Origin: an uncultured Monoglobus sp.
GTDB lineage: Bacteria > Bacillota > Clostridia > Monoglobales > Monoglobaceae
Length of the DNA stretch: 64,000 nucleotides
NCBI GenBank assembly: GCA_947628795.1
Contig: CANRBF010000007.1
Coordinates: 1-64,000 of the forward strand
Direction of reading: 5' to 3'
A program made the position numbers and the translations under genes. The notes beneath the pieces were generated by a model. It saw only the letters and a list, made by a program, of their open reading frames with translations, made no database searches and was not told the DNA's origin. Every line of letters starts with the position of its first letter. The stretch's first letter is position 1. This document shows, piece after piece, positions 2,585-60,079 of this stretch.

Positions 2585-2615
2585 AACGTAGTGATTAGGG
2601 ATTAGTAAATAGGGG
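2585..2615. repeat. TAG-heptad repeat fragment (copy H)
   Basis: AACGTAG opens a run of four TAG triplets spaced exactly seven bases apart (TAG-TGAT-TAG-GGAT-TAG-TAAA-TAG). This is the outer end of the repeat family seen complete at 8566-8731; no hairpin module follows, so it is a remnant or a solo end. Confidence 0.6.
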
Positions 2616-2720
2616 AAAGTTTTATAATAAAAGTGGACACGCAAAGAGGAAAAAACAGCATAAGCGTGGCTCTGCCCCAAACCCCGAAGTTTAACGCATT
2701 GGTTTTCCCTAAAACGGACA

Positions 2721-3269: not shown

Positions 3270-4697
3270 ATGAAAATAGCAGCTTGTTATATAAGAGTTT
3301 CAACCGAAGATCAGGTTGAATATTCTCCCGATGCGCAGCTTCGGGCAATGAAAAAATATTGCAGCGACAATGATCTGCTGCTCCCGAAAGAGTTTGTATT
3401 TATTGACGAGGGCATCAGCGGCCGCTCCGCCAAAAAGCGCCCCGCCTTTCAGAACATGATAAAAACGGCCAAGATAAAGCCGAAACCCTTTGATATTATC
3501 CTCGTTCATAAGTTTGACCGCTTTGCCCGCTCCCGCGAGGACAGCGTTGTATATAAATCAATGCTCCGCTCCGAGCTGGGTATTCGGGTCGTGTCGGTCA
3601 CCGAGAACATCGGCGACGATAAGATGAGCGTTATCATGGAATCCATGCTTGAGAGCATGGCGGAATACTATTCTCTCAATTTGTCCGATGAGGTCAAGAA
3701 GGGCATGAGCGAGAAGGCAAAGAAGGGCGGCGTCCAGACAAAAGCCTCTTTCGGTTATCGCGTGGAAAACAATAAGTTTGTCCCCGATGAGGCCGAGGCG
3801 CCGTATGTTAAAGAAATATTTGAGAGCTTTGTCGGCGGCGAGGGCTACGGCAGTATTGCCCGCCGCATGAACGCCCGCGGCATCAAGACGCACCGCGGAA
3901 ACAAATTTGAGCAGCGCACGATCCGGTATATAATCGGCAATCCCGTGTATATCGGCACACTCCGCTGGACTCCGTCGGGCAAAGTCGAGCGCAACACACC
4001 GAGCTCCGACACGATTTTTCTTGAAAACCAGCACGAGCCTCTTGTCACCCGCGAGGTCTGGGACGCCGCACAGGAAAAAAGAAACAAGCTCTTGCTCAAT
4101 TCCAGAAAATATTTAAAGAACTACAGCGGCGTTTCATATTGGCTGTCTGGCCTTTTGGTCTGTGACAACTGCGGCAAGACCCTGAGCCGCGCAGGAAAGT
4201 ATTTACAATGCGGCGGATATTCAAAATCTCTGTGCAACGTCTCTCACTCTATCCCGATCGCCCGCGCCGAGGAGCTTGTCATAAATCAGCTGAAAGAAGA
4301 TTATAACAATATCATGAGCGTCAGTCTCAAAAGCGACGGACGTAAAATAAAAAACACCGACGAGACCAAAACATACGCCGACGCGATCACCCGCCTCGAA
4401 AAATCCTTGCAGCGCGCCAAAGACGCCTACATCGCCGGAGTGGACACGCTCGAGGAATACGGCGAAAACAAAACGCGAATACAAGATGAGATCGAAAAAA
4501 ATAAAAAATTGCTTAAAGATCAGAACACACAAAAATCCACAGACCCAAAAGAACTGGCCGAAAACATAATGCGCGCGATCGAGTTTATCCAAGACGAAAA
4601 CAACTCCCTCGAGGACAAAAACAAAGCCTTAAAACAATTCATCTCCAAAATCACATTTATAAAAGCCTCAAAAACCCTTGAAATCACGTATTTTTAA
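3270..4697 (+). CDS. Large serine recombinase (integrase/excisionase type)
   Basis: Large serine recombinases cut and rejoin DNA at short attachment sites through a 5'-phosphoserine link, and integrate or excise phages and related elements. The 475-residue protein has all expected parts. The catalytic resolvase domain (1-150) has CYIRVSTEDQ with the nucleophile at Ser11 and the KFDRFARS arginine motif. It is followed by a recombinase domain (about 160-265), a zinc ribbon (CDNC ... CGGYSKSLC, about 300-325), a coiled coil (about 370-440) and a short tail. It appears intact. It ends only about 25 bases before the point where cotJC breaks off on the other strand, as expected when an integrase gene lies next to its attachment site. 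The SD is a modest AGGGGTG. Confidence 0.93.
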   Translation: MKIAACYIRVSTEDQVEYSPDAQLRAMKKYCSDNDLLLPKEFVFIDEGISGRSAKKRPAFQNMIKTAKIKPKPFDIILVHKFDRFARSREDSVVYKSMLRSELGIRVVSVTENIGDDKMSVIMESMLESMAEYYSLNLSDEVKKGMSEKAKKGGVQTKASFGYRVENNKFVPDEAEAPYVKEIFESFVGGEGYGSIARRMNARGIKTHRGNKFEQRTIRYIIGNPVYIGTLRWTPSGKVERNTPSSDTIFLENQHEPLVTREVWDAAQEKRNKLLLNSRKYLKNYSGVSYWLSGLLVCDNCGKTLSRAGKYLQCGGYSKSLCNVSHSIPIARAEELVINQLKEDYNNIMSVSLKSDGRKIKNTDETKTYADAITRLEKSLQRAKDAYIAGVDTLEEYGENKTRIQDEIEKNKKLLKDQNTQKSTDPKELAENIMRAIEFIQDENNSLEDKNKALKQFISKITFIKASKTLEITYF

Positions 4698-6107: not shown

Positions 6108-6488
6108 ATGAAAAGAGTTATCATAACCGTTATAATGCTCGCGCTGGCGGTAGGGTTCATAGTGTACCACAACACGGTCGTGAGCAAACTCGACGAGCGG
6201 GTGGACAGGACATATGACACTGTGATCGGCGCGTTTGAACAGGAGGATTTTGAGAAGATAACAGCAGAGCTTGAAAGTCTGGAAAAAGAATGGGACGGCG
6301 CGCAGTCGTGGATAGGAATGACGCTCGATACCGACATGCTCGAGGAGATCGGCATCTCCCTGAGGCAGAGCATAGAGTACGCCAAGATCGCCGCGAAAGA
6401 AGATTTCATCGGCGAGTTCGTGATGTTCAACCAATGCGTCAAGCATTTGACCTATTACGAAAGGTTGACAGTTGAAAGTTTGCTGTAA
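6108..6488 (+). CDS. DUF4363 family protein
   Basis: This 126-residue protein has one N-terminal hydrophobic segment (VIITVIMLALAVGFIVYH) that should anchor it in the membrane, followed by a helical extracytoplasmic domain (FEKITAELESLEKEWDGAQSW). DUF4363 proteins are typically encoded directly after a DUF421 gene, as here; the function is unknown. The stop codon lies at the outer edge of a dispersed repeat (TAACGCAGTGATTAG), so the insertion may have set the present C terminus. Confidence 0.85.
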   Translation: MKRVIITVIMLALAVGFIVYHNTVVSKLDERVDRTYDTVIGAFEQEDFEKITAELESLEKEWDGAQSWIGMTLDTDMLEEIGISLRQSIEYAKIAAKEDFIGEFVMFNQCVKHLTYYERLTVESLL

Positions 6489-6720
6489 CGCAGTGATTAG
6501 CGATTAGTAAATATTGATTAGGCCCCCTCAGTCGGGCAAAGCCCGACAGCATTAAGGAAGCTCTTGGTCAAAATTGCAAGCAATTTTGAAAGATAGCTTT
6601 GAACCCGCAAGCAAGCTTGCTGATTATCCCCGAGGGGGCGCCTATTTTATGCCTCCTCCCGGGAGGAGGTGGCTGCGGCTTGCCGCAGACGGAGGTGGGA
6701 ATGTAGAGACTAGGCACTAA
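6486..6720. repeat. TAG-heptad MITE-like repeat, copy A (carries an insert)
   Basis: The left end has the 7-base-spaced series CAG-TGAT-TAG-CGAT-TAG-TAAA-TAT-TGAT-TAG. Module 1 (CCCCCTCAGTC, hairpin, GACAGC) starts at 6524 but is split by about 77 bases of unrelated sequence before its CCCCGAGGGGGCGCC end. Module 2 (GCCTCCTCCCGGGAGGAGG, hairpin, ACGGAGGTGGG) occupies 6651-6700, and a short degraded right end follows. It sits between two convergent genes. Confidence 0.8.
6568..6589. repeat. Perfect hairpin inside the insert of repeat copy A
   Basis: TCAAAATTG-CAAG-CAATTTTGA has perfect 9-bp arms. A second palindrome, AGCAAGCTTGCT, lies at 6610-6621. Both are within the roughly 77 bases that interrupt module 1. 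Confidence 0.75.
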
Positions 6721-7674: not shown

Positions 7675-8550
7675 TTATTTTGCGAGGTCTATAAAGCGGC
7701 GGAGATCGGCCTCTCCGAAGGTATATTTACGGTCGCAGAAGTGGCAGCAGATCTCGGCCTCGCCCGTGTCGTTTAATATCTCGCTTATCTGCTCCTTGCC
7801 GAGCGATATTATCGCGCGCTCCATGCGCTCTTTGGAGCAGTCGCAGTGATAGCCGATGTCGGTCGTCTCAAGTATCTCGACCTCAAAGCCGAGCATGACG
7901 TATCTTATGACTTCCTCGGGCGTCATGCCGCGCTCGAACATCTCGGTCAGGGTCATGATGCCGCCAATCGAGTTCTCCAGCATAGTAAGCGCCTCGTCGT
8001 CGCACTCGGGCATAACCTGTATTATAAAGCCGCCCGCGCCCTTGACCGAATAGTCGGTATCGACCAGCACGCCGAGCGCCACCACGCTCGGGGTCTGCTC
8101 GGACTGCATGAAATAATAGGCGATGTCGTCGCCCACCTCGCCCGTCTGTATCGGCACCTGACCGATGTAAGGCTCGCGCATTTTGAGATCTTTGATAACG
8201 CCGAGCACGCCGTTTCCGACCGCGGCGCCAACATCAAGCTTGCCCTTTGAGTTGAGCGGTATGTCGACCCTCGGATTTGCGCAGTAGCCCTTGACATGAC
8301 CCTCGGAATCCGAGACCGAGACCATCATGCTGAGCGGGCCGTCGCCCTTCATCTGGAGCGTCAGCGAGGGCTTGTCTCCCTTGAGCATGGCGCCCATCAT
8401 GACGCCCGCGGTCATAAGGCGGCCGAGCGCCGCGCAGCACACGGGCGAGAGCTTGTGGTACCTCTGCGCCGTGTTGACGATCTCGCGCGTGTCCGCCGCG
8501 TAGATCCTGAAATATCCGTCCTTGGTGACGGCTTTTACAAGTTTGTCCAT
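7675..8550 (-). CDS. hslO: Redox-regulated chaperone Hsp33
   Basis: Hsp33 is a cytoplasmic holdase switched on by oxidation: four cysteines release zinc and form disulfides, and the protein then binds unfolding clients. The 291-residue product starts in the family's usual way (TKDGYFRIYAADTREIVNTA) and carries the C-terminal switch as CDC (about 238-240) and CHFC (about 270-273). The SD AGGAGG abuts the left end of dispersed repeat copy B. The gene follows the carboxypeptidase gene in the same direction, with the repeat filling the gap between them. Confidence 0.96.
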   Translation of the reverse strand: MDKLVKAVTKDGYFRIYAADTREIVNTAQRYHKLSPVCCAALGRLMTAGVMMGAMLKGDKPSLTLQMKGDGPLSMMVSVSDSEGHVKGYCANPRVDIPLNSKGKLDVGAAVGNGVLGVIKDLKMREPYIGQVPIQTGEVGDDIAYYFMQSEQTPSVVALGVLVDTDYSVKGAGGFIIQVMPECDDEALTMLENSIGGIMTLTEMFERGMTPEEVIRYVMLGFEVEILETTDIGYHCDCSKERMERAIISLGKEQISEILNDTGEAEICCHFCDRKYTFGEADLRRFIDLAK

Positions 8551-8565
8551 TGTTTTTTACCTCCT

Positions 8566-8731
8566 AACGTAGGAACTAGGGATTAGGATTTCCCCCTCAG
8601 TCGGGCAGTGCCCGACAGCTCCCCCGAGGGGGCGCCAATCTAAATTTGCCTCCTCCCGGGAGGAGGTGTCAGGCGTAAGCCTGACGGAGGTGGGTCCTAG
8701 TTCCCAGTACCTACTCCCTAATTCCTACGTT
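8566..8731. repeat. TAG-heptad MITE-like repeat, copy B (complete reference copy)
   Basis: A 166-base unit with near-perfect terminal inverted repeats: the left end starts AACGTAGGAACTAGGGATTA and the right end, read inward, AACGTAGGAATTAGGGAGTA. Each end carries TAG every seven bases. Module 1 (8592-8636) has hairpins GTCGGGC-AGT-GCCCGAC and CCCCC-GA-GGGGG. Module 2 (8648-8694) is a diverged copy in the opposite orientation, with CCTCCTCCCGGGAGGAGG and GTCAGGC-GTAA-GCCTGAC. The right end supplies the stop codon of the upstream carboxypeptidase gene; the left end touches the hslO ribosome binding site. Confidence 0.85.
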
Positions 8732-9886
8732 GTTTTTTATCATTTCGCTCCAGTTTTTGAAAACGGTGCCGATGTCGTGCTTTATGTCATTGAAAAATGT
8801 GTCTTTTGACGGCTTTACAAGGTCTATGTCATCGGTAGCGATCAAATTAAAATTGCCGTAGTTCTCACCGTTGACCGTGACGCTGCCCGTTCCTAGGGCG
8901 TCGCCCGCGTGTATCGGCAGCGCGATATCATCATTGACCTCGGTTTTTACCTCAATTTTATCCTCGTCACAGACGGGAAAGGTGTAGGTCTTGTCGGGAA
9001 CAAGGCCGCTGTAGCCGAAAATTCCCTTGCCTACGGTTATTTTGTCGACGACCGTCTCGGTCGAAGTCAAGTCCTCGATATGGTATTTTTCGAACATCTC
9101 GTTTTGGAGATTCGTGTGGTCGTTCCAATCGTCGGGGTCATTGAGCGTCACGCATATCAGCGTCATGCCGTCTCTGGTGACCGCGGTTACGAGACACCTG
9201 CCCGCGGCGTTGGTGTAGCCCGTCTTGACGCCCACGCAGCCGTCCAGCACACCGAGCAGCTTGTTGTGGTTCACCATTTCGCGGTTATAGTCCTTGCCCT
9301 CCCACGGCACCGACTTTTCCTTTGTGGCGCAGACCTGCGCGAACGTCGGATCCTTGAGCGCCTCGGCGGTTATTATCGCCAGTTCGTGCGCGGTGGTGTA
9401 GTGCGTGTCGGACGGTAGGCCGTTGGGATTGTCGAAATGCGTGTGCGTGAGGCCCATGTCGTTTGTCGCGGTCTCGTTCATCATCTCAACAAAGCGGTCG
9501 ACGCTTCCGCCGATTGCTTCGGCTATCGCGACTGCCGCGTCGTTGCCCGACTGAAGCATGAGGCCATACAGCAAATTTTCCATTGTTATGTGCTCGCCCT
9601 TTTCAAGATACATGCCCGAGCCCTCAACGCCCGAGGCATTCTCGCTGACCTCAACAACGTCGCTGAGAGTTCCGTATTTCGAGGTTAAATAGCCCGTCAT
9701 GATCTTAGTCGTGCTCGCCATAGGCAGCTCCCAGTCGGGATTTTTGGCGTACAGCACCCTGCCGGAGTTTTGCTCGATCACGGCCGCGGCTTTGGCGCTG
9801 TTGTCCGCGGCGAATGCGGGCGCCGTGAGATTAAACGCGAGCATAAGCGCCAGAACGGCGCACAGGACGATTTTGTGCAGTTTCAT
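8711..9886 (-). CDS. D-alanyl-D-alanine carboxypeptidase (DacF/PBP5 family)
   Basis: A secreted low-molecular-mass penicillin-binding protein (peptidase S11) that trims the last D-alanine from peptidoglycan stem peptides. It has a signal peptide (residues 1-27, ending APAFAA), the SxxK nucleophile motif STTK (about 62-65), SGN (about 117-119), KTG in VKTGYT, and a beta-rich C-terminal domain. The start at 9886 is preferred over the ATG nine bases upstream because CGGAG directly touches that earlier ATG and is well spaced for this one. The last residues (N)VGIRE and the TAG stop are encoded by the end of repeat copy B, so the native C terminus, perhaps an amphipathic anchor, has probably been replaced. 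Confidence 0.92.
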   Translation of the reverse strand: MKLHKIVLCAVLALMLAFNLTAPAFAADNSAKAAAVIEQNSGRVLYAKNPDWELPMASTTKIMTGYLTSKYGTLSDVVEVSENASGVEGSGMYLEKGEHITMENLLYGLMLQSGNDAAVAIAEAIGGSVDRFVEMMNETATNDMGLTHTHFDNPNGLPSDTHYTTAHELAIITAEALKDPTFAQVCATKEKSVPWEGKDYNREMVNHNKLLGVLDGCVGVKTGYTNAAGRCLVTAVTRDGMTLICVTLNDPDDWNDHTNLQNEMFEKYHIEDLTSTETVVDKITVGKGIFGYSGLVPDKTYTFPVCDEDKIEVKTEVNDDIALPIHAGDALGTGSVTVNGENYGNFNLIATDDIDLVKPSKDTFFNDIKHDIGTVFKNWSEMIKNNVGIRE

Positions 9887-9950
9887 TTGTTTCATCTCCG
9901 TTTGTTGGTTCTCATTAAATATATTCGGATATATTGGAATTATTCGGATA

Positions 9951-10112
9951 TTAGTAACTAGGGACTAGGAACCCCCCTCAGCCGCCGTTGGCGGCAGCTC
10001 CCCCCCCAGGGGGCGCCTAATTAAAGCCTCCTCCCGGGAGGAGGTGTCAGGCGTAGCCTGACGGAGGTGGGTCCTAGTACCTATATCCTATTTCCTAGTC
10101 TCTATTCCACGT
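9951..10112. repeat. TAG-heptad MITE-like repeat, copy C
   Basis: The left end reads TAG-TAAC-TAG-GGAC-TAG. Module 1 (CCCCCTCAGCC, hairpin, CAGCTCCCCCCCCAGGGGGCGCC) and module 2 (GCCTCCTCCCGGGAGGAGG, GTCAGGCGTAGCCTGAC) follow. The right end read inward has five TAGs at 7-base spacing after ACGTGGAA. The first of these is the stop codon of the amidase gene. Confidence 0.85.
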
Positions 10113-26413: not shown

Positions 26414-26532
26414 AACGTAGGGAATAGGATCTGGGGACTGGGACGGGCGGAAAATATTAGGCTCGCCCCTTGGGGAGAGCTGGCCGCGGCTTGTCCGCAG
26501 ACTGAGAGGGGTTTGTATTCCAAATCGCATTG
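26414..26532. repeat. TAG-heptad repeat, copy D (divergent hairpin type)
   Basis: AACGTAG-GGAA-TAG-GATC-TGG-GGAC-TGG is a decayed heptad array. A single module follows, TTAGGCTCGCCCCTTGGGGA, a hairpin GCCGCGGCTTGTCCGC, and ACTGAGAGGGGTTTG. The part from TTAGGCTCGCCC to CCAAATCGCA is shared with copy G at the right end of the window. It lies between the hprK promoter and the end of the histidine kinase gene. Confidence 0.7.
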
Positions 26533-29689: not shown

Positions 29690-29700
29690 TTGTTTCCTCC

Positions 29701-29804
29701 ACGTAGGGACTAGGGAATAGGATCTAGAGACTAGGGCCACCCCCTCAGTCGCCTTCGGCGCCAGCTCCCCCTCCTAAAGGAAGGGGAGCCTATTTTGCCT
29801 CCTG
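29701..29804. repeat. TAG-heptad repeat, copy E (right half truncated)
   Basis: ACGTAG-GGAC-TAG-GGAA-TAG-GATC-TAG-AGAC-TAG gives five TAGs at 7-base spacing. A complete module 1 (CCCCCTCAGTC, GCCTTCGGCG, CAGCTCCCCCTCC, GGAAGGGGAGCC) follows. Only the first bases of module 2 (TTTTGCCTCCTG) remain before the dnaK stop codon at 29805-29807. It fills the dnaK-dnaJ gap of the heat-shock operon. Confidence 0.8.
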
Positions 29805-31660: not shown

Positions 31661-31967
31661 AACGTAGTGATTAGATAACATAGTTATTAGTGATTAGCGA
31701 ATAGCGAATAGAATCGGCTTTCGCTTTTTTATAATTTTCAGATATTTTCGGGAGCATTGCTCCCCCCTCAGTCGCCTTCGGCGACAGCTCCCCCGAGGGG
31801 GCGCCGGGACGCCGGGGTCGTCGTCCCCTACGACCGCAATACATCCAATGCCGTAGGGGCGGACGACCTCGGCCGCCCGTTTGCCTCCTCCCGGGAGGAG
31901 GTGTCAGGCGTAAGCCTGACGGAGGTGGGCTCCCAGGTCCTAGTTCCTATTCCCCGGTACCTACGTT
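31661..31967. repeat. TAG-heptad MITE-like repeat, copy F (long, carries a nested unit)
   Basis: A 307-base copy with both terminal sequences (AACGTAG ... CTACGTT). The left end is an expanded array of TAGs, mostly seven bases apart (TAG-TGAT-TAG ... TAG-TTAT-TAG-TGAT-TAG-CGAA-TAG-CGAA-TAG). Module 1 is near 31766-31804 and module 2 near 31880-31930. Between them sits another inverted-repeat unit (31805-31880). The first TAG of the right end is the grpE stop codon and the left end touches the dnaK ribosome binding site. Confidence 0.85.
31805..31880. repeat. Nested inverted-repeat unit inside copy F
   Basis: GGTCGTCGTCCCCTACG (31816-31832) and CGTAGGGGCGGACGACC (31852-31868) are inverted repeats matching at 15 of 17 positions around a 19-base loop. 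The unit separates the two hairpin modules that are adjacent in copies B and C. Confidence 0.75.
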
Positions 31968-45778: not shown

Positions 45779-46040
45779 AAAAGTCATGCGCTTGCGTTCG
45801 AAACAGCCTTACAAGCGTTACTCACACAGTTAGCTCGGATTTAGCGCCCTCACGGCACATCGAAATGACTGCTTATCGCTGCTGCGTTCCCGCCCTGACG
45901 AGGTTCACAGGTTCCGATTGCGTAAGACCAAACCGTCAACACCACTTATGCGAGGCAGACCAAACAAGGATATCCCTCAAAAGCAAGTTTTCATCCCCTC
46001 TGTAGCGGATTGAGGGTTACAAGGCACCGCTAACGCCCCA
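45779..46040 (-). ncRNA. ffs: Signal recognition particle RNA, large bacterial type
   Basis: On the minus strand the RNA begins near GGGGCGTTAGCGGTGCC and ends in CATGACTTTTTT. The 5' domain has the Alu-like GCGGTGCC-TTGTAACC-CTC-AATCCGCTACAGAGGGG found in Firmicutes 6S-type SRP RNAs. The helix 8 apex reads GTCAGGGC-GGGAAC-GCAGCAGC, the GGAA-tetraloop site for Ffh binding. At about 260 bases it is the long form with an Alu domain. Its place just upstream of dnaX also fits. The exact 5' end is uncertain, because the promoter at 46059-46087 would allow a start some bases upstream. Confidence 0.93.
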
Positions 46041-46058
46041 ATTTAACATGACTTACAT

Positions 46059-57856: not shown

Positions 57857-60079
57857 ATGAAAAAATTTTTGTTACTTTTTGCCGCGTTTATAACAATTTT
57901 GTTATGCGGCATGTGCGCGAGCGCCGAAAGCGCGCCCACGTTTGATGACGGCTCTGTTATTGTTACGCTTGATCCTTCAAACCGCGGCGCAAAAATCGCC
58001 GCATTCGGAAGCGATATACCCGACTTCGGAAATATCGGCGTGACCGACGTTGATGTGCTTATGTCGCCTCCGGCGGGCAGGATCGCCCTGATGAGCCTGA
58101 ACGCCAAACCAAAAATTTTAAAACTCACTCTGTCAGAAAATGGCGTCGATTCGGTAGCGGACGCGATCGAAAAGCTTGAATCAATGCCCGAAGTCAAATA
58201 CGCCGAGCCTAACTATTATCTTAAATTATGCGAAACCGACGATCCTTATTATACGGATGGCAGCCAATACGCGCTTGATAAGGTCAGCGCCCCGGATCTG
58301 TGGGATCTTGATATCGACTGCTCAAACACATGCGTTGCTATGATCGACTCGGGCGCCCGAGTGACACATGAGGATCTTGCTGATAATATCTGGACAAATC
58401 CGAATGAAATCCCGAATAATAATTTTGACGATGACGGAAACGGATACATAGACGATGTGCACGGCTGGAACTGCTTTTCCGATAACAACGATTTGTCCGA
58501 TAATGTCGGCCACGGTACACACGTGGCGGGGATCGTGAGCGCCGCGACAAACAACTCAAAGGGCGTTGCGTCAGTTGCGAGAAACGCGAAAATCGCGGTT
58601 ATAAAAGCTTTTAACACGAGCACTACCACTGTTGATATGGTAATAAAAGCAATAGATTACGCAAATTCTATGGACTTTAAAATCGTAAACGCAAGCTTTG
58701 CCCTAAATGACCCTAAATTTGTAAATAGTATGAATTCGGCGATTCAGGCATGCCCCGACACACTGTTCATATGCGCAGCCGGCAACCACGGCTTAAATAT
58801 TGATATTAATCCGATTTATCCCGCGTCTTACGATTTTCCGAATGTACTCGCGGTTGCCAATATCACAGAGAGCGACGCGCTGTCCGCAAGCTCAAATTAC
58901 GGAGTTAAAACCGTTGACATCGCGGCGCCCGGAAACAATATTATGAGCACGATAAACGACTCCGATTCCGCATACGGACCATTAAGCGGCACATCAATGG
59001 CATCTCCGTTAGTCGCGAGCGCGGCGGCGGTCGTTTTGGCCGTTAATCCGAATTTGACTCCATCGGAAGTCGTTGAAATACTTACAAAATCCGCCGATAG
59101 CAGCGCCCCTCTTGAAGGCAAGGTCAAAGGCGCCGCTCGTCTAAACGCGCATAAAGCCGCGCTTATGAGCATCGAGTCAACCAAGACGCCGGTGCCGTCG
59201 GAATCTCCGAAACCGTCCGACGCGCCGATTTACTCCGAATCACCCGTTCCATCGGGATCAATTGAGCCTTCCCCTGAACCGTCGGAATCGACGGAGCCGT
59301 CAGCTGCGCCGACCGGATCGGCAACGCCTTCACAGGTGCCCGCGGAACCACCTCGGCCCTCAACAATGCCTTCGCAAACTCCTACAGTGTCAGCCCGGCC
59401 TTCGCAAACGCCCGCGGAATCGCCTAAGCCTTCCGCGGCACCCGTAAAATCACCCGAACCTTCGGAACCGACCGGATCCTACGCGCCGTCTGCCGCTCCA
59501 TCGGCCACCGCGGCGCCTACAGCGATTCCCTCAAGCGCGCCTGTTCCGACACAGACGCCGACAGCGGAACCCTCGAACACTCCTGTTTCGACACAAACGC
59601 CGACAGCGGAACCCTCGAGTGCTCCTGTTCCGACACAGACACCGACAGCGGAACCCTCGAGTGCTCCTGTTCCGACACAGACACCGACAGCGGAACCCTC
59701 GAGCGCTCCTCCTGTTCCGACACAGACGCCGACAGCAGCGCCGACATATACTTCCGCGCCCTCCGCTGAAGCGTCGGCCGAACCCTCAAACGAGCCGCAA
59801 AATGATCCATTGACAATAAACGGCGTCACTCTCTCTTCAAACAAAGTAAGCGTTCGGATAACGGGCAGCCAAACTGCTGAGAGCATGATTTTTGCGGCCG
59901 CGTATGACGAAAGCGGAGTTCTCACGGATTTTGCGTTCGACACTCTCAGGCAATTTGAAAACGAGACGATAGTTGATATCACGCTTGATCATGAAAAGTC
60001 CTCCTCAATATCCGTTTTTGTTTGGAGTAATGCGAATGAAGCGAAACCGCTTTGCGAAAAATATGTCTTGGATCTATAA
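57857..60079 (+). CDS. Secreted subtilisin-like serine protease (S8) with a repeat-rich tail
   Basis: A 740-residue exported protease. It has a signal peptide (1-25), an I9-like propeptide region (to about 125, MPEVKYAEPNYYLKL) and a subtilase domain (about 135-440). The catalytic triad is Asp164 (VAMIDSGARVTHEDL), His219 (VGHGTHVAGI) and Ser380 (SGTSMASPLVASAAAV), with oxyanion Asn310 (CAAGNHG). A long Pro/Ser/Thr/Glu linker (about 440-640) contains five 14-residue repeats of SSAPVPTQTPTAEP type. A C-terminal beta domain (about 650-740) ends without LPXTG or SLH anchor. The linker suggests the catalytic domain is held away from a surface or partner. Confidence 0.92.
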   Translation: MKKFLLLFAAFITILLCGMCASAESAPTFDDGSVIVTLDPSNRGAKIAAFGSDIPDFGNIGVTDVDVLMSPPAGRIALMSLNAKPKILKLTLSENGVDSVADAIEKLESMPEVKYAEPNYYLKLCETDDPYYTDGSQYALDKVSAPDLWDLDIDCSNTCVAMIDSGARVTHEDLADNIWTNPNEIPNNNFDDDGNGYIDDVHGWNCFSDNNDLSDNVGHGTHVAGIVSAATNNSKGVASVARNAKIAVIKAFNTSTTTVDMVIKAIDYANSMDFKIVNASFALNDPKFVNSMNSAIQACPDTLFICAAGNHGLNIDINPIYPASYDFPNVLAVANITESDALSASSNYGVKTVDIAAPGNNIMSTINDSDSAYGPLSGTSMASPLVASAAAVVLAVNPNLTPSEVVEILTKSADSSAPLEGKVKGAARLNAHKAALMSIESTKTPVPSESPKPSDAPIYSESPVPSGSIEPSPEPSESTEPSAAPTGSATPSQVPAEPPRPSTMPSQTPTVSARPSQTPAESPKPSAAPVKSPEPSEPTGSYAPSAAPSATAAPTAIPSSAPVPTQTPTAEPSNTPVSTQTPTAEPSSAPVPTQTPTAEPSSAPVPTQTPTAEPSSAPPVPTQTPTAAPTYTSAPSAEASAEPSNEPQNDPLTINGVTLSSNKVSVRITGSQTAESMIFAAAYDESGVLTDFAFDTLRQFENETIVDITLDHEKSSSISVFVWSNANEAKPLCEKYVLDL
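59530..59740 (+). repeat. 42-bp coding tandem repeat in the protease linker
   Basis: Five near-identical units of about 42 bases encode SSAPVPTQTPTAEP and variants. The third and fourth are almost base-identical (CCCTCGAGTGCTCCTGTTCC start), indicating recent duplication; the fifth has one extra CCT codon. Confidence 0.85.

Follow-up and report, generated by a model that had tools for sequence, protein, structure and literature searches.

TAG-heptad arrays at the ends of a MITE-like intergenic repeat family in Monoglobus

A family of short repeats in Monoglobus ends in a sharply bounded module of direct heptanucleotide repeats. The module is abundant, with about 120 exact ends in a single genome, it is used in inverted pairs, and it sits at junctions that mostly stay fixed between species while the sequence inside them turns over. 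We put the odds at about one in two that these arrays constitute the terminal modules of short non-autonomous MITE-like mobile elements, with the heptads serving as putative cooperative sites for a recombinase or transposase. On this reading the heptads would be bound by protein, movement would have occurred by transposition in trans, and conversion may be the route by which interiors turn over. The family was probably mobile at one time.

The window, 64,000 nucleotides in length, belongs to a Monoglobus (Clostridia, gut) MAG of 2.35 Mb in 25 contigs. The genomes with which it was compared are also MAGs, gene calls rest on the length of ORFs, and the sampled stretches were selected for containing arrays. 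No name for the Monoglobus repeat was found in the literature searched; a preliminary description of the window had suggested that the family may be unnamed.

The end module and its copies

One copy in the window, copy B, had been described as complete, with inverted ends and TAG every seven bases. The sequence bears this out: the arms at 8566-8587 and 8710-8731, each 22 nt long, are 91% complementary, and each opens with AACGTAG and continues with TAG every 7 bases, those of the right array lying on the minus strand at 8725-8727, 8718-8720 and 8711-8713. The predicted fold of the RNA strand reaches -94.3 kcal/mol (z -8.0). The parts of copy B and its flank are as follows.

8545..8565, minus strand: flank with an AGGAGG Shine-Dalgarno-like sequence and the hsp33 start region, abutting the end of copy B (from the sequence; junction identical in G004, G002 and G011)
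8566..8731, no strand assigned: copy B, a complete element of 166 bp made up of array, hairpin, centre, hairpin and inverted array
8566..8590, plus strand: left end array, AACG and three TAG heptads, with TAG at 8570, 8577 and 8584
8592..8637, plus strand: palindromic hairpin module CCCCCTCAGTC...GAGGGGGCGCC, from the sequence; the module recurs in many islands
8645..8694, plus strand: palindromic hairpin module GCCTCCTCCCGGGAGGAGG...GGTGGG, with four copies in the window
8696..8731, minus strand: right end array, AACG and five heptads, the fourth broken (TGG) and the fifth with TAG
8711..8713, minus strand: third TAG of the right array, which is the stop codon (ORF end) of the S11/PBP5 peptidase gene 8711-9895

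The protein of the peptidase gene has a full-length alignment in both G004 and G002. Other arrays in the window show the same periodicity with different bases in the four positions between TAGs (N4), as had been claimed.

2585..2616, plus strand: array with a large serine recombinase gene (3270-4697) downstream
6487..6522, plus strand: array whose first TAG has become CAG
9948..9972, plus strand: left array of another copy (interior 9973-10069)
10070..10108, minus strand: right array of that copy, five TAG, outer AAC lost
26414..26449, plus strand: degenerate array, two TAG
29700..29738, plus strand: array, five TAG
31661..31715, plus strand: array nested in an older array (AACGTAGTGATTAGAT then AACATAG...)
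31932..31967, minus strand: inverted partner of the preceding array, 250 bp further on, with two heptads broken (CGG, TGG)

The product of gene 3270-4697 has Resolvase, Recombinase and zinc ribbon domains, the nearest models being CcrB/XisF, below cut-off, and no inverted partner array lies on the far side of the gene. Nesting of the kind seen at 31661-31715, in which the newer AAC begins inside a heptad, was also found at loci L159, L208 and L284, and suggests either self-targeting or unequal recombination. Two other features of the window are a 42-bp tandem repeat (59514-59723), in frame within ORF 57857-60079, and a large bacterial SRP RNA gene (45784-46051; Rfam RF01854).

Genome-wide, the pattern TAG(N4TAG)3 has 259 matches and the reversed control pattern 2, which supports the earlier view of a dispersed, MITE-like family. 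We scanned 464 kb of this genome, the window plus 20 stretches, for all combinations of trinucleotide and period with at least 20 hits, and TAG at period 7 ranked first in over-representation; fourfold chains of this kind numbered 124, where about 0.001 were expected. Exact ends are found in 11 of the 12 genomes of the genus, the window's own genome having about 120 and G008 none, and are absent from most neighbouring genera of the family; plasmids and IMG/VR gave no match when searched with the Monoglobus motif. The preliminary description had proposed just such a survey of the genome and its relatives, and the periodicity that it revealed refutes chance.

When 83 ends were aligned, conservation ran from the outer AAC to the TAGG that follows the fifth unit, with both flank and interior unconserved, so that the module is a sharp-edged 36 bp of the form AAC-R-(TAG-N-R-A-H)x4-TAGG. 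Among 346 anchored arrays with at least four TAGs, the T, A and G of heptads 1-4 are each 98-100% conserved, the A at position 6 (A6) is conserved at 92-99% and R5 at about 89-96%; the base after TAG, the fourth, varies almost freely. TAG and its spacing had been singled out as the conserved property; they do stand above most N4 positions, but A6 nearly equals TAG. Exactly five TAGs are present in 217 of 373 anchored arrays (58%), four TAGs plus TACGC in 49, and more than five in 12 (3%).

These regularities bear on whether the arrays arose as a heptanucleotide simple-sequence repeat, through polymerase slippage followed by spread and shuffling by recombination between dispersed palindromic islands. 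Heptamers are over-represented in bacterial repeats, and GTGATTA, which equals the TAGTGAT heptad, is reported from Helicobacter pylori (cited in PMC4692102). A targeted search for TAGYGRT also returned plasmids of Pseudoalteromonas and Bernardetia with long homogeneous TAGTGGT/TAGTGAT arrays and a Fischerella plasmid with a short array of similar kind, and the nested arrays are themselves in keeping with slippage. However, only 11% of neighbouring heptads are identical in Monoglobus arrays, as against 52% in the TAG-heptad arrays of other taxa, in which run lengths vary from 3 to 27. The Monoglobus units are position-specific, the AAC boundary is sharp, the arrays are paired in inverted orientation about short centres, and we do not see the variable number of near-identical tandem units that marks an SSR or STRR. 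Given the fixed five units and the rarity of adjacent identity, we regard the ends as a structural module rather than as satellite DNA. Simple tandem slippage is rejected as the main cause by the run-length and adjacency statistics, and slippage with subsequent recombination strikes us as a doubtful origin.

Paired elements and orthologous junctions

Convergent arrays 60-320 bp apart form 49 pairs. The smallest elements measure 90-105 bp and have the centre ...ATATCTCACGG..., and the next, of 118-124 bp, have the centre TACGCGG...CCGCG...; all of these intact short elements (90-124 bp) have the module on both ends and differ in their centres. Two hallmarks of MITEs are present, namely short non-coding elements bounded by terminal inverted repeats, seen in the 49 pairs and in copy B, and many dispersed, mainly intergenic copies (74 of 76 sampled arrays are outside ORFs). 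Similar ends with different centres are found in Candidatus Roslinia caecavium, a member of another genus. We also considered stem pairing with covariation between the arms and rejected it: N4 likeness is 0.448 within an element and 0.505 between elements, and since the arms of one element are no more alike at variable bases, TAG is not kept by stem pairing. In most islands the array is fused to palindromic modules (GACGGAGGTGGG, GAGAGGGGTY, CCGCCCCTACG) that abut AAC exactly, giving a mosaic; in 66 of 90 sampled cases, AAC or AAT comes directly after GACGGAGGTGGG, the end of the hairpin module seen at 8645..8694 in copy B. With most arrays now in mosaics with hairpin modules, the boundary of the original element is not certain.

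Copy B and 20 further sites were compared with the sister species G002, G004, G009 and G011. Both junctions of copy B (...AAAAA-CA/ACGTAG and CTACGTT/AGGAGG...ATG of hsp33, the slash marking the junction) are common to four species, and the interiors between them are wholly different, with lengths between 166 and about 700 bp. The longest of these orthologues, in G011 (locus L110, between the S11 peptidase and hsp33), contains what we take to be a small DUF559-like endonuclease gene. This gene lies inside the heptad ends and has CACCTCATCAGTC palindromes on both sides. In G009 the element is absent from the copy B site, the sole nearly clean empty site seen, which fits insertion or precise loss alike. 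Of the 20 further sites, 17 could be aligned across the entire junction with one or more sister species. At these further sites the junction is usually constant and the interior altered, arrays swap variable-base classes, and mixed type-1/type-2 arrays occur at orthologous sites.

At sites with unique flanks, divergence was 4.0% in the flank, 3.0% (11/372) at TAG and 3.2% at A6, and rose to 31% at the first variable base, 18% at R5 and 19% at H7, a comparison in which replaced arrays would match at TAG as all copies do. The contrast of TAG with N4 substitutions, suggested at the outset as a check on the repeat, came out in favour of TAG. Because the variable bases evolve far faster than the flanks, the comparison points to arrays having been replaced by other family members rather than point-mutated.

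A history of this kind could also come about if BIME-like mosaic palindromic islands exchanged the repeats mainly through gene conversion and homologous recombination, a dedicated transposase being gone and the heptads shared via donor copies. Fixed junctions with swapped interiors, the mixture of type-1 and type-2 arrays at orthologous sites, the exact meeting of hairpin modules with AAC and the empty transposase searches described below would all be expected. Yet recombination by itself explains neither how a fixed 36-bp module used in inverted pairs arose nor why TAG and A6 were retained across subfamilies while N4 diverged, and we consider it an unlikely account. Whatever the route, copy B and the 20 orthologous sites across five species provide a clear case of an intergenic repeat whose boundary is stable and whose content turns over fast.

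Stop codons within the arrays

Because 7 = 1 modulo 3, TAG in a 7-bp repeat stops every frame. Any frame read inward from outside copy B meets TAG at end offset 4, 11 or 18, which bears out the earlier statement that a stop is reached within about 20 bases whichever side translation comes from. That statement had been extended to an all-frame stop design, which would imply a selected translational barrier, with the TAGs halting ribosomes from either side and shielding the host from read-through. All intact arrays do close the three inward frames, and at 8 of 76 sampled arrays an inward-reading gene, as with the S11 peptidase gene, has its stop within the array or on the first base of it. The changes that TAG has undergone tell a different story: the 24 broken TAGs of heptads 1-4 comprise TGG (9), CAG (6), CGG, AAG, TTG and TAA (2 each) and GTG (1), with no TGA, so that a stop was kept in 2 of 24 and stops are not the preserved property. 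Furthermore, A6 is constrained nearly like TAG and has no role in stopping, five TAGs are retained though three are enough to close the frames, and all three reverse frames are closed in 63 arrays, below the 111 expected when variable columns are shuffled. Relative to co-directional neighbour genes, arrays are oriented without bias (21 sense, 31 antisense, p=0.21). On the grounds of substitution types, reverse-frame closure and orientation, we reject selection for stop codons and think a translational barrier highly improbable; the all-frame stops are most likely a side effect of the heptad pattern.

The near-equal numbers of sense and antisense arrays also weigh against a regulator acting at the RNA level, in which UAG repeats of intergenic mRNA would be bound by a repeat-reading RNA-binding protein. 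The UAG spacing is regular and arrays often adjoin a Shine-Dalgarno sequence (a CCTCCT-AAC spike), but the arrays have no match in Rfam, and we give the idea very little credence.

All-frame stops are not peculiar to Monoglobus, and the suggestion that no bacterial repeat with them had been described was too strong. RUP, CIR and Correia-155 (PMC2229807) and MITEAba12 (PMC6382973) have stops in all reading frames, and the forward copies of TAACTGA heptad repeats in marine Beggiatoaceae, cyanobacteria and Bacteroidetes stop three frames (PMC4679880). The former four resemble the Monoglobus repeats in being short, dispersed, mostly intergenic, non-coding and structured, but they have a single terminal sequence and mostly target duplications, whereas the Monoglobus repeats end in a degenerate direct repeat of five units and showed no duplication. 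The TAACTGA repeats, which lie near gene starts and stops (PMC4679880), are also 7-bp intergenic direct repeats, but with an invariant unit and variable array length in place of a degenerate TAGNRAH, five units and inverted pairs. The heptamers of Xanthomonas and Nostoc (GGGAATC, GGGGAYT; PMC4692102) are, as in Monoglobus, conserved between the same genes across related species while varying in length and sequence; unlike the Monoglobus arrays, they are G-rich, quadruplex-forming and variable in copy number.

Mobility and a proposed mechanism

The preliminary description had also called for empty sites, target duplications and a full-length transposon with matching ends. Apart from the G009 site, these signs were not found in the sequence examined. 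Between arrays, in 1.7 Mb of sampled sequence with overlapping loci included, the 35 distinct ORFs in array-bounded segments include no transposase, and no full-length transposon with matching ends was present in the segments examined. Y1 (PF01797) is absent from the window's genome and from most array-rich species, IS110 and DDE_Tnp_1 have no match in the window's genome, and IS607 has none above the NF033518 cut-off in 12 genomes. Adjacent target-site duplications did not exceed the cross-pair control in the 49 pairs, a possible repeat of ~12 bp being seen at copy B alone. The flank before AAC has a weak T-R-Y-C preference. Among 193 distinct non-module flanks, CCTCCT (the Shine-Dalgarno complement) stands directly before AAC in about 10 cases, a spike at exact spacing which indicates that elements sit flush against ribosome-binding sites.

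Locus L103:14915-19002 contains a tandem of four genes for Rpn-like nucleases, which match TIGR01784 below its cut-off; every one of them ends in a heptad array of this kind that gives the stop codon (TAA) from the reverse strand. As a candidate for the family's mover these nucleases were rejected, being one gene family of little spread with a sub-cut-off match.

Arrays to which transposases bind have this appearance, with a set number of short direct repeats at either end of a short element. TnpA of the IS607 family binds cooperatively to multiple short subterminal direct repeats and makes no target duplication (PMC6188088), and the Monoglobus ends are similar in having multiple short direct repeats near the end and no adjacent target duplication seen. 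The motifs of IS1535, of the same family, are 9 bp and helically phased (PMC6188088), whereas the heptads are 7 bp and no IS607 transposase scored above cut-off. The REP/BIME mosaics and GTAG-tagged palindromes (PMC2817692, PMC3733652) likewise form intergenic palindrome islands with GTAG at the module edge, but REP/BIME have a Y1 transposase partner, absent from the window's genome, and the heptad array is not a REP hairpin.

We suggest the following model for the elements of Monoglobus and one related genus. The five 7-bp direct repeats TAG-N-R-A-H that follow AAC-R at each end would make up a putative array of cooperative sites for a transposase or recombinase supplied in trans, for which regular spacing and contacts to T, A, G, (R) and A may count while the remaining bases do not. 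Elements would have inserted between genes, often exactly at a stop codon or Shine-Dalgarno sequence, and then have been absorbed into islands made of other palindromic repeats. Later overwriting by gene conversion or repeated insertion would have swapped interiors and variable heptad bases and kept the outer junction; the present turnover at old junctions looks like one or the other of these. All-frame stops would simply follow from TAG in a 7-bp repeat, and be used occasionally by a neighbour gene.

A bolder and rather improbable extension is that the ends are read by their spacing, a recombinase contacting TAG (and A6) once per 7 bp in five steps. Copies would overwrite each other via the arrays, and insertion points would become standing exchange sites at which cargo (hairpins or, in one species, the DUF559-like nuclease gene) is swapped and the junction kept. 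TAGYGRT heptads in inverted pairs 70-140 bp apart occur in contigs from the human gut that were deposited as phage (L352, L354) and in IMG/VR contigs, these occurrences coming from a search targeted at that motif alone. L352 and L354 (GenBank 'Bacteriophage sp.', unverified) are apparently bacterial chromosome (murA-like gene), and in the two records the same genes flank inverted TAG-heptad repeats; from its gene content, we presume this chromosome to resemble that of Bacteroides. If ends are indeed read by spacing, the inverted TAG-heptad arrays of the Bacteroides-like and other contigs would be distant members. More generally, the Monoglobus family allows recognition based on spacing to be separated from coding-level effects, in repeats that occupy many operon junctions of a gut genus. 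A protein that reads TAG every 7 bp, if found, would represent a new type of transposon-end recognition and would explain the mosaic repeat islands in gut Clostridia.
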